The translations under genes were made by a program, and so were the position numbers. Below, one piece after another: positions 4,227-14,468 of a stretch of 64,000 bases of DNA; position 1 is the stretch's first letter, and every line of letters starts with the position of its first letter. The DNA is from Pseudomonadota bacterium (lineage in GTDB: Bacteria > Pseudomonadota > Alphaproteobacteria > Sneathiellales > Sneathiellaceae), in the NCBI GenBank assembly GCA_024743055.1, contig JANSXH010000006.1:1-64000 (forward strand). Direction: 5' to 3'. The notes below the pieces were generated by a model. It saw only the letters and a program-made list of their open reading frames with translations. It was not told the DNA's origin and did not search any database.

Positions 4227-4268
4227 TTATTAAAAAAACTTGACCATTTGGTCAGTTTTTCGTTATGG
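4227..4268. promoter_or_regulatory. RutR operator with divergent rutR/preT promoters
   Basis: TTGACCATTTGGTCAG at 4240-4255 differs from the E. coli RutR consensus TTGACCAnnTGGTCAA only at the last base. Toward preT, its TTGACC (4240-4245) can serve as a -35 with TTATGG at 4263-4268 as the -10 (17-base spacer). Toward rutR, CTGACC (4255-4250) pairs with TAATAA (4232-4227), again with a 17-base spacer. One bound repressor dimer would cover both -35 boxes. The operator match is direct; the promoter assignments are inferred. Confidence 0.8.
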
Positions 4269-4336
4269 TTTTTTCACAAAAGTAAAGCAGTCGGTCAAGG
4301 CAGCTGATTTTCTGACATGGAGAAGGAACGGGGAGT

Positions 4337-5677
4337 ATGAGCGATATCGCTTTTGGACGCCTGTCTGAGGACGAGCTGGAAGAGAATTTTGCCGATATGT
4401 ATCCGCCGCTGGATGCAAAAACCGCAGGCATTGAGGCAAGCCGTTGTTATTTTTGTTATGACGCTCCCTGCATAGAAGCCTGTCCAACCGGAATTAATAT
4501 TCCCAATTTCATTCGTAAAATTGCCACTGCCAATTATCGAGGCTCCGCCATCGATATTCTGGATGAAAATGTTATGGGGGGTGCCTGTGCACGGGTTTGT
4601 CCGACTGAGGTCTTGTGCGAAGAGGCCTGTGTCCGGACCGCCCAGGAAGGAAAACCTGTTACCATCGGTAAGTTACAGCGTTTTGCCACAGACTGGCTGA
4701 TGGAAACCGGGGAGCAACCCTATAGCCAAGGAGCCCCCACGGGTAAGAAAGTTGCCATCGTCGGGGCGGGTCCTGCAGGCCTGGCAGCCGCACATCGTTT
4801 ATCCCAGCAGGGTCATGACTGTGAAGTATTTGAGGCCATGCCGAAATCCGGCGGCCTCAATGAGTATGGCATCGCCGCCTATAAGGTCCCAGACAATTTT
4901 GCCCAGAAAGAGGTTGATTTTATTTTGGGCGTTGGCGGCATCACTGTTCATAACGGTAAAAAACTCGGCACTGACGTGCATCTCGCGGATTTACGAAAAG
5001 ACTTCGATGCCGTCTTTATTGGCAGTGGTTTGGGGTCGGTTCAGGCCCTTGGTTTGGATGGAGAACATCTGGATGGCCTCCATAATGCTGTCGATTTTAT
5101 CTCAGATGTGAGGCAAACAGGGAACATGGCCGAATTGCCGGTCGGTCGCCGGGTCGTTGTTATCGGTGGTGGCAGTACAGCGATCGATATTGCCGTTAAA
5201 AAGAAAAAGCTCGGGGCCGAGGATGTCACTTTGGTGTATCGGCGCGGACCGTCCGATATGAGCGCGACTTCCGTTGAACAGAAATTCGCTCAGAACAACA
5301 ATGTGCGCATCAAACACTGGATGCAGCCAAAAGCCATTAAAACCGAAGGGGACCGGGTCACTGGTGTCGAGTTTGAATATACAAGGCTTGATGAAAATGG
5401 CCGTCTGTTCGGAACAGGGGAGACCGTCATTGTCGAGGCAGACATGGTCTTCAAGGCCATAGGTCAAGTTTTTATTCCGGATCCGGTTCGTCATGAAGCC
5501 AGTGCCTTAGAACTAAATAATGCAAAAATCGTCGTTGATGAAAATTACGCCACATCACTTGATGGGGTTTTTGCGGGCGGTGACTGTATTGACGGTAATA
5601 TTGGCTTGACCGTTGCAGCTGTTCAAGATGGCAAGCTCGCCGCGGCAGCAATTGGTTCATATCTGGCAGACAAATAG
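4337..5677 (+). CDS. preT: NAD(P)-dependent dihydropyrimidine dehydrogenase, PreT-type subunit
   Basis: This flavoprotein subunit transfers electrons between NAD(P)H and PreA for reduction of uracil and thymine to the dihydropyrimidines. The 446-residue protein starts with two cysteine clusters for Fe-S centres (CYFCYDAPCIEACP near residues 38-51, CARVCPTEVLCEEACV near 82-97). An FAD dinucleotide fold follows (VAIVGAGPAGLAAAHRL near 139) and then an NAD(P) fold (VVVIGGGSTAIDIA near 273). GGDC near residue 416 marks the C-terminal FAD contact. AGGAACGGGGAGT precedes the ATG. preA begins 15 bases downstream, so the subunits should be co-translated. Also called PydX in some bacteria. Confidence 0.93.
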   Translation: MSDIAFGRLSEDELEENFADMYPPLDAKTAGIEASRCYFCYDAPCIEACPTGINIPNFIRKIATANYRGSAIDILDENVMGGACARVCPTEVLCEEACVRTAQEGKPVTIGKLQRFATDWLMETGEQPYSQGAPTGKKVAIVGAGPAGLAAAHRLSQQGHDCEVFEAMPKSGGLNEYGIAAYKVPDNFAQKEVDFILGVGGITVHNGKKLGTDVHLADLRKDFDAVFIGSGLGSVQALGLDGEHLDGLHNAVDFISDVRQTGNMAELPVGRRVVVIGGGSTAIDIAVKKKKLGAEDVTLVYRRGPSDMSATSVEQKFAQNNNVRIKHWMQPKAIKTEGDRVTGVEFEYTRLDENGRLFGTGETVIVEADMVFKAIGQVFIPDPVRHEASALELNNAKIVVDENYATSLDGVFAGGDCIDGNIGLTVAAVQDGKLAAAAIGSYLADK

Positions 5678-5692
5678 GGGTAGGAGACAACA

Positions 5693-12886: not shown

Positions 12887-12899
12887 GGCGGAAATTTCT

Positions 12900-14357
12900 T
12901 TATTCGGCTGCTTCGGCCGGGCGTTCCACTTTTCTCGGGGCTGTTTCAACCCATCTCTTTTCAAGCGCCTGGAAATGGCTGTTGAAAGTTGGGCGCTTGA
13001 TATAACGACCAGCCCCTTTGACCACATTCAACTGACCATCCTTAAAGACGACTTTGCCTTGACTGATGGTATGGCTTGGGCTGCCGGTGACTTCCATGCC
13101 TTCAAAAATATTGAAGTCAATATTCTGATGGTGGGTCTCGACCGAAATAGTCCGTGTCATTTTTGGATCCCACACCACGATATCCGCATCCGCCCCAATT
13201 GAGATGGACCCTTTACGGGGATGGATGTTGAAAATCTGAGCCGCATTTGTAGACGTGACTTTGACAAACTCATTCATGGTGAGCTTGCCACTATTGACCC
13301 CATGCTGCCAGAGCACAGCCATGCGATCCTCGACGCCGGAGGTGCCGTTCGGAATCTGGGTAAAGTCGTTCCGACCAGCCGCTTTTTGCGGAGCACAGAA
13401 ACAGCAATGATCTGTAGCAGTCGTTTGTAGATTACCCGACTGCAGCCCTCTCCAAAGCTCCCGCTGATGATCCTTGGGCCGGAAGGGTGGGCTCATGACA
13501 TGGGCCGCCGCATATTCAAAATCCTGATTGTAATAGACACTGTCATCAATCAGGAGATGACCAGCAAGACATTCGCCAAAGACCCGCTGGCCTTCAAGCC
13601 GAGCCCGCGTAATAGCTTCCAGGGATTCCTTGCAGGATACATGCACCACATAAATGGGTGTCTGCAGAACCTGGGCTGTTCGAATGGCCCGGTTGGCGGC
13701 TTCACCTTCCACTTCCGGTGGGCGGGACTGTGGATGTCCTTCCGGACCAGTAATTCCCTTGGCGAGCATTTCCTGCTGCAGATGATAGACCATCTCGCCG
13801 TTTTCCGCGTGAACCGTGGCCATAGCTCCAAGTTCCCGGCAGCGGGTGAAGCTGGCGATCATCATCTCGTCTGAGACCATGATGGCATTTTTATAGGCCA
13901 TGAAATGCTTGAAGGAATTGACACCTTCCTCCTGGGCCAAGATCCCCATATCGCGATGGACCGTATCGTCCCACCAGGTGACGGCGACATGGAAGCTGTA
14001 ATCAGCAACAGCTTTTTCCGCCCAGCCACGCCATTTTTTATAGGCGTCCATAAGGGGCTCTTCCGGATCAGGAATAACAAAGTCGATGATCTGTGTCGTC
14101 CCACCAGCAAGCGCTGCAGCTGTGCCCGTTTCAAAGTCTTCTGATGCAACAGTTCCCATAAAGGGCAGTTGCATATGGGTATGCGGATCGATGCCGCCCG
14201 GCATCACATACTGATCTCCTGCATCAACAATTTCAGCACCGCTCGGCGCCTCAAGATCTTCCCCAATGGCCTTAATGGTTCCGTCTTCGCAATAGACATC
14301 GGCGCGATAGGTTCTCTCCGATGTGACAACCGTTCCGCCTCTTATTAAAACAGACAT
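12900..14357 (-). CDS. hydA: dihydropyrimidinase / D-hydantoinase
   Basis: It hydrolyses 5,6-dihydrouracil or dihydrothymine to the N-carbamoyl-beta-amino acid, the second step after PreTA. This 485-residue cyclic amidohydrolase has the metal-binding [12 protein letters not shown], the lysine to be carbamylated in [10 protein letters not shown], then [16 protein letters not shown] and TTATDHCCF. Length and motifs are normal for HydA. The ATG at 14357 has GGAGG seven bases upstream; an ATG 12 bases earlier would include that ribosome site in its own codons, so I reject it. The promoter faces left from the operator at 14453-14468. Confidence 0.95.
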
Positions 14358-14423
14358 TTGCACCTCCATGACCTGTCGGCCAATCCTGACATTGGTTGGC
14401 CTTGCTTTGCGGATATTTTAGCT

Positions 14424-14468
14424 TTGCCTTTTGAAAAAGGATAGCTAAAATCCTGACCAAATGGTCAA
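14424..14468. promoter_or_regulatory. second RutR operator with divergent hydA/ureidopropionase promoters
   Basis: CTGACCAAATGGTCAA at 14453-14468 is the exact reverse complement of the operator at 4240-4255. Toward hydA, its TTGACC (14468-14463) is a -35 with GCTATC (14445-14440) as -10 at 17 bases. Toward the ureidopropionase gene, TTGCCT (14424-14429) and TAAAAT (14446-14451) form a promoter with a 16-base spacer, so the operator covers the likely start point. Repression of both directions by one dimer is inferred. Confidence 0.8.

Follow-up and report, generated by a model that had tools for sequence, protein, structure and literature searches.

What controls a pyrimidine-degrading gene cluster that carries the same 16-bp sequence, in opposite orientation, in two divergent gaps between its genes? 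The question is raised by a stretch of 64,000 nucleotides from a Pseudomonadota bacterium of the family Sneathiellaceae (GenBank assembly GCA_024743055.1, contig JANSXH010000006.1, positions 1 to 64,000), which we call the window. The 16-mer TTGACCATTTGGTCAG stands at 4240-4255 on the plus strand and its exact reverse complement at 14453-14468; direct reading confirmed both the coordinates and this relation, as the original prediction had given them. The first copy lies in the gap between the regulator gene rutR and preT (dihydropyrimidine dehydrogenase), the second between hydA (dihydropyrimidinase) and a nitrilase-type ureidopropionase gene. Judged from sequence, the RutR-like TetR repressor encoded at 3489-4154 very probably uses both as its operators. 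We further consider it highly probable that they form, together with a third site before a nucleoside operon, a switch that is released by uracil or thymine. The three features on which this rests are as follows.

4240 to 4255, plus strand: putative operator 1, TTGACCATTTGGTCAG, an exact match whose first half is also the candidate preT -35 box
14453 to 14468, minus strand: putative operator 2, TTGACCATTTGGTCAG, an exact match in which 14463-14468 is the candidate hydA -35 box and which adjoins the candidate ureidopropionase -10 box
3489 to 4154, minus strand: rutR, a RutR-like TetR repressor with its likely start at ATG 4154, named from Pfam, NCBIfam and PDB matches

The sites are rare. At up to two mismatches, TTGACCANNTGGTCA matches the window eight times against 1.48 expected, a number reached in none of 100 shuffles; four of the eight are the two near-palindromic sites counted once per strand. 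In the source assembly (3.6 Mb, 86% complete) the two sites are the sole exact matches to TTGACCANNTGGTCA, and the looser pattern YTGACCRNNYGGTCAR yields three sites compared to none for the reversed control pattern. Across 24 genomes of the genus, YTGACCRNNYGGTCAR gave 72 sites against 14 for the reversed control (summed from the per-genome table). Exact-pattern matches within coding frames of relatives (for example at loci L119, L122, L124 and L126) were taken as chance.

Regulators of the RutR family bind a 16-bp palindrome, TTGACCA-N2-TGGTCAA, from which uracil releases them; a site of this kind is present and conserved here. With TTGACCANNTGGTCAA as the E. coli RutR consensus, the distance of one mismatch between it and the window sites, named in the original prediction, holds. 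No paper giving the letters of the motif was found in the literature on RutR. In E. coli MG1655, the best match before carA, TTGACCATTTGGTCCA, is identical to the window site in 14 of 16 bases, and the best match between rutA and rutR, TGGACTAAACGGTCAA, differs from this consensus at three positions (both read directly). From their placement we infer that these two are the RutR sites of their promoters.

Is the neighbouring regulator of the RutR type? Both Pfam domains of the RutR family were found above their cut-offs (TetR_C_3, 1.3e-48; TetR_N, 1.8e-12), and the protein is the single TetR_C_3 match in the source assembly. It aligns without gaps to E. coli RutR across 170 residues and matches the RutR structure 3loc in the PDB with 1.5e-39. 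The closest named relative, from a metagenome-assembled genome of Sneathiellales, shares 77% identity. The uracil pocket of E. coli RutR is formed by W77, Y97, W167, Q171 and Q179 according to the legend of Fig. 5 in PMC10891134. The equivalents in the window's regulator are W79, Y99, W169, Q173 and Q181, and all five are invariant in 16 of 16 aligned homologues, which were picked from 29 matched stretches. In one incomplete genome (G017:C110, L153), rutR is in two pieces with a stop, yet a site precedes it.

The original prediction suggested a scan for the site beside preT and hydA in related genomes, and such a scan bears it out. A site was found upstream of preT in all 14 genomes of the genus in which that region was examined and at hydA in all 15 that have this gene. 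Gene counts refer to the 24 genomes of the genus, several of which are incomplete: RutR is present in 18, preA (the second dehydrogenase subunit) in 12, the nitrilase-type gene in 14, hydA in 15 and the M20 amidohydrolase gene hyuC in 22, including all 17 genomes of good quality. Every one of the 12 preA-bearing genomes has RutR. Outside the genus, a site with two mismatches precedes preT in G024, which belongs to another genus of the family, and in G025, G038 and G039. Where rutR is separated from preT in G011 and G012, each of the two genes has its own site. Paired sites 24 bp apart were observed upstream of a preT separated from rutR in G012 (L066:5583 and 5607), in G004 (L143:1609 and 1633) and at L158 (889 and 913).

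The original prediction had also drawn attention to the identity of the two sites and to a possible loop of the roughly 10.2 kb of DNA between them. Neither point is supported. The two sites are identical in just 6 of 14 genomes; a recent duplication, which the identity of the pair might suggest, is disfavoured since the centre bases vary and identical pairs are limited to these six. Coupling of both sites by looping through RutR would fit a cluster bracketed by two strong sites. The distance between the sites is 10.2-14.0 kb in 11 genomes of the genus, whereas two others have 3.2 kb and 14.8 kb, and because of this variability over 3.2-14.8 kb in 13 genomes we reject looping as unsupported. 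Each site on its own covers a candidate promoter, and a TetR dimer occupies one operator each, which also argues against it. We regard looping as most improbable.

What each site could do alone is suggested by its surroundings, for which the following features were assigned.

4263 to 4268, plus strand: candidate preT -10 box, TTATGG, after a 17-bp spacer
14415 to 14452, no strand: conserved near-dyad adjoining operator 2, self-complementary at 30 of 38 positions
14439 to 14444, minus strand: candidate hydA -10 box, CTATCC, inside the dyad
14423 to 14428 and 14446 to 14451, plus strand: candidate ureidopropionase -35 box TTTGCC and -10 box TAAAAT, inside the dyad

Read towards preT, all 14 sites have the form TTGACC...GGTCAG, and a 17-bp spacer separates the TTGACC half from a -10-like hexamer, which is CTATGG in eight of the 14 genomes and TTATGG in two. 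Read towards hydA, all 15 sites likewise run this way, with CTATCC (9), CTATCA (4) or CTGTCC (2) after a spacer of 18 bp. Since TTGACC always faces preT or hydA in the genus, the upstream half of the site is best read as doubling as a -35 box. The hydA site of G024 and G025 is reversed and faces the nitrilase-type gene. Towards that gene, the genomes show TTTGCC (11/14; TTTCCC in 3), 17 bp, TAAAAT (14/14), a single base and then the operator. As divergent -35- and -10-like boxes thus run up to the operator, site 2 would cover the hydA -35 box and, in the other direction, the start region of the ureidopropionase gene. The overlap with promoters in both directions that had been predicted for each site is supported at site 2 and on the preT side of site 1; no rutR promoter was assigned.

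The self-complementarity of the dyad beside operator 2 was matched in none of 5000 mononucleotide shuffles. A search at up to three mismatches gave one match each in 15 of the 24 genomes and no other; the same 15 have hydA, and they include G010 (65% complete), in which no ureidopropionase gene was found. This degree of symmetry, its confinement to hydA-bearing genomes and its retention in G010 would suit the site of a second regulator, responding for example to nitrogen limitation, so that hydA and the ureidopropionase gene would be under two signals. The overlapping divergent promoters account for much of the conservation, in that all 14 genomes that have the ureidopropionase gene share TAAAAT, where G010 has AAAAAT, and a regulator would usually have further sites. 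A second regulator is possible, in our view rather unlikely. An RNA hairpin was also considered and is disfavoured: the proposed hydA transcription start lies inside the dyad, and visual inspection shows no covariation at the single outer pair that varies.

The pattern recurs outside the cluster. A third site, TTGACCGGTTGGTCAG, was found on another contig of the window's genome at G000:C25:192234-192249 (L157:8735-8750), where it starts 90 bp upstream of an operon encoding a BMP-type binding protein, an ABC ATPase, two permeases, a PNP/UDP-type phosphorylase, a DeoC/LacD-family aldolase, an aldehyde dehydrogenase and a pyrimidine nucleoside phosphorylase. Upstream of this operon lies a divergent uracil phosphoribosyltransferase gene. 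The BMP gene is present in 22 of 24 genomes. Exact-pattern sites precede its orthologue in 12 RutR-bearing genomes, G000 included; all 12 start with TTGACC and 9 end with G. At a cut-off of 1.5 weighted mismatches (C at positions 1 and 10 and G at positions 7 and 16 counted half), a site precedes the BMP gene in 14 of the 17 RutR-bearing genomes that have this gene compared to 1 of the 5 RutR-less ones, with a Fisher p of 0.021 for a cut-off set after the scores were seen and kinship left uncorrected. A second, paralogous BMP-type ABC operon with an upstream site occurs at L121, L123, L129, L131, L136, L142, L144 and L146 (G012, G011, G009, G022, G023, G015, G004 and G006, respectively). Its sites have at most one weighted mismatch in 8 of 11 genomes and 1.5, 1.5 and 2 in the others; no copy of this operon turned up in the window's genome.

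The BMP sites of the RutR-less genomes G003, G008 and G020 have the TTGACC half intact and the other half damaged. In G006 (66% complete, no RutR found), hydA and its site are present and the BMP site is damaged. A broader proposal, which we consider evenly poised between right and wrong, is the following: the RutR of the genus would be one switch for the whole route from nucleosides to beta-alanine, comprising the nucleoside importer and phosphorylases, the base importer and the reductive pathway, and its operators would be polar composites with one half serving as the -35 box and the other being purely repressive. Without RutR, the -35 half would stay and the other half decay, leaving an unrepressed promoter. 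The expected decay is seen at the BMP sites of G003, G008 and G020 and perhaps of G006; that of G016 does not show it.

Several observations weigh against a RutR-controlled switch as set out here. The regulator's best NCBIfam match is RutR (5.6e-54), under the cut-off: it scores 183 bits where TIGR03613 demands 368 and 156 where NF011584 demands 230, and because these equivalog cut-offs are missed we call the protein RutR-like or RutR-type. G016, which has no RutR, retains a good BMP site, while G018 and G021 keep RutR and have lost the BMP site, the TTGACC half being damaged too; the BMP site of G007 is weaker, with 2.0 weighted mismatches. Genomes of one genus are non-independent samples. 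Outside it, G057 has a site beside rutR and none beside preT, and for its second RutR copy and for the RutR of G031 no site was found within three mismatches. Among named homologues, 13 of 80 loci (kept from at least 593) have a site with at most two weighted mismatches (here with only G at position 7 and C at position 10 counted half) within 600 bp before rutR, and 67 have none; our impression is that many of these 67 are from Pseudomonas or betaproteobacteria, with rutR often behind other genes. The scan beside rutR excluded the second RutR copy of G046 (L037).

The remaining adverse points concern rutR itself, which the original prediction had placed under the same control. Promoter elements in the rutR direction are not fixed at site 1. 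Of the genomes in which rutR lies apart from preT, G011 and G012 have a rutR-side site as described, that of G004 is weak (three mismatches), and G007 and G019 show none within three mismatches. Conservation is thus firm for the preT and hydA sites, and autoregulation of rutR is less sure owing to the weak or missing rutR-side sites in G004, G007 and G019.

Some of these observations could also be read to mean that the palindromes are operators of another TetR-family regulator and that RutR is merely a neighbour with a different site. Sites of TetR-family regulators resemble each other, the NCBIfam cut-offs are not reached, and some RutR-less genomes do contain matches (two in G014, one in G016 and two in G006). 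The lack of a second site beside the separated rutR of G007 and G019 points the same way. Against this explanation, a site stands beside rutR in G011 and G012, in which rutR is away from preT, exact-pattern sites number 67 in 18 RutR-bearing genomes of the genus versus 5 in the 6 RutR-less ones, and the near-identical E. coli site lies before carA, whose promoter is bound by RutR (PMC10891134). We consider another regulator highly unlikely. Control of the preTA-hydrolase-importer genes, hydA and the ureidopropionase gene by one RutR-type repressor, as originally predicted, is well supported by conservation, by the uracil pocket and by the joint absence described below.

Which functions would such a repressor control? 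Beside the regulator and its sites, the cluster contains the following genes.

4337 to 5677, plus strand: preT, reductase subunit of dihydropyrimidine dehydrogenase, from relatives resembling the glutamate synthase small subunit and from its place before preA
5693 to 6967, plus strand: preA, dihydropyrimidine dehydrogenase subunit (NF006183, 728 bits, cut-off 335)
6983 to 8218, plus strand: hyuC, M20 amidohydrolase of the N-carbamoyl-beta-alanine amidohydrolase or beta-alanine synthase type (PDB 8c46, 4.8e-151; 1r3n, 1e-93)
8202 to 12092, plus strand: ABC importer of four genes, with an ATPase (8202-9005), two permeases (8998-9915 and 9912-11039) and an NMT1/THI5-like binding protein (11070-12092)
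12185 to 12853, plus strand: protein weakly like ureidoglycolate lyase (Pfam PF04115, 1.5e-08)
12900 to 14357, minus strand: hydA, dihydropyrimidinase (TIGR02033, 602 bits, cut-off 393), starting with ATG 14357 after GGAGGTG
14512 to 15384, plus strand: nitrilase-type beta-ureidopropionase (Pfam CN_hydrolase, 2.5e-63)

The reductive (Pre/Pyd) set appears complete, with preA and hydA above their NCBIfam cut-offs and two predicted ureidopropionase-type hydrolases recognised by structural similarity. The structures matched by hyuC are an N-carbamoyl-beta-alanine amidohydrolase (8c46) and a beta-alanine synthase (1r3n); NCBIfam places the protein in the allantoate amidohydrolase subfamily NF006769 (691 bits, cut-off 452). 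The nitrilase-type product matches CG3027-PA (2vhh, 1.5e-62) and nitrilase-kind beta-ureidopropionases (8pt4, 1.2e-59; 6ftq), and its best NCBIfam match is N-carbamoylputrescine amidase, under the cut-off. Two unrelated enzymes of the ureidopropionase type thus share one pair of sites. The true start of the nitrilase-type gene is more likely 14512 (or 14509), preceded by GGGAGAGG. The start in the open reading frame call, ATG 14461, was rejected because it lies inside operator 2 and because the open frame of G005, which has no room upstream, covers exactly the 290 residues of a product begun at a 14512-type start. No rutA-G genes of the oxidative Rut pathway are among the annotated open reading frames of the cluster; the rest of the genome was not searched for them.

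The switch would work as follows. As long as free uracil and thymine are absent, a RutR dimer would sit on each site and block transcription. The dimer at site 1 would cover the -35 box and spacer of preT and, lying upstream of rutR, might also act on its own gene; the dimer at site 2 would cover the hydA -35 box and the divergent start region named above. Uracil, perhaps also thymine, would enter the conserved pocket and cause the dimer to leave the DNA. Importer, dihydropyrimidine dehydrogenase, dihydropyrimidinase and ureidopropionases would then be made together, and through the third operator the switch would extend to the nucleoside importer and nucleoside phosphorylases.

Does the cluster behave as a unit across the genus? 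Searches of five RutR-less genomes (G003, G008, G014, G016 and G020) yielded no preA, hydA or nitrilase-type gene, and hyuC is kept. No operator was detected in the 300 bp before hyuC in these five (best matches with 4-6 weighted mismatches). Around hyuC, uup is present in four of the five (not G003), and a ureidoglycolate-lyase-like gene follows in four (not G014). Importer and preT were looked for in these genomes within 3.6-4.2 kb around hyuC, and a single weak ATPase match was all that appeared there. As regulator, sites and pathway genes go missing jointly while hyuC persists, hyuC looks like a core and the genes under RutR like a removable module around it, which may have been lost or gained. 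Three further genomes, G013, G015 and G023, likewise gave no match to preA, hydA or the nitrilase-type gene; here rutR faces hyuC, and the sites have 2.5, 2 and 1 weighted mismatches, respectively. All 17 genomes of good quality have hyuC even where preA and hydA were not found, and the ureidoglycolate-lyase-like gene frequently follows it. In the window, a stop codon splits the uup ABC-F gene (688-2511) into two open reading frames (688-1380 and 1465-2511) that share one reading frame.

These species offer a natural experiment, with regulator, sites and pathway genes jointly absent and the M20 hydrolase retained, and so bring into question the role of hyuC alone. It may lie in beta-alanine and coenzyme A supply, as the aspartate decarboxylase gene panD (PF02261) was found in none of the 24 genomes compared to 8 of 14 control genomes. 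A parallel is Rhizobium etli, which makes beta-alanine via the uracil pathway (PMC7142369). Its AmaB is, like the enzyme predicted here, a beta-alanine synthase of that pathway in a species without panD; it differs in being a shown source of beta-alanine for pantothenate, and the abstract and section 3.5 of that paper mention no RutR site.

Among the literature matches listed, those for Sneathiella and pyrimidines held nothing useful, and no description of the polarity or of the nucleoside operon was recognised, which may be contained in RegPrecise. RutR regulons of pyrimidine catabolism have been predicted there for 68 proteobacterial genomes in 13 groups, with 273 sites and taxon-specific motif changes (RegPrecise; PMC5343134). 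The window's system shares with them the predicted regulation of pyrimidine catabolism, whereas the part of PMC5343134 consulted contains no target list against which the nucleoside operon or the polarity of the sites could be compared. E. coli RutR is likewise a TetR_C_3 protein with identical uracil-pocket residues, a near-identical 16-bp site before carA and a gene divergent from a pyrimidine operon. In E. coli this is the oxidative Rut pathway, whereas the window contains the reductive PreTA-HydA-ureidopropionase route together with importers and a regulator under the NCBIfam cut-offs for RutR. With RutR regulons already predicted across Proteobacteria, the window's system would be a well-supported further member and a fairly ordinary pyrimidine-sensing switch. 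It clearly exemplifies a RutR-type regulator that goes with the reductive pyrimidine pathway rather than the oxidative one, and nucleoside import would here be tied to base degradation via one shared site.

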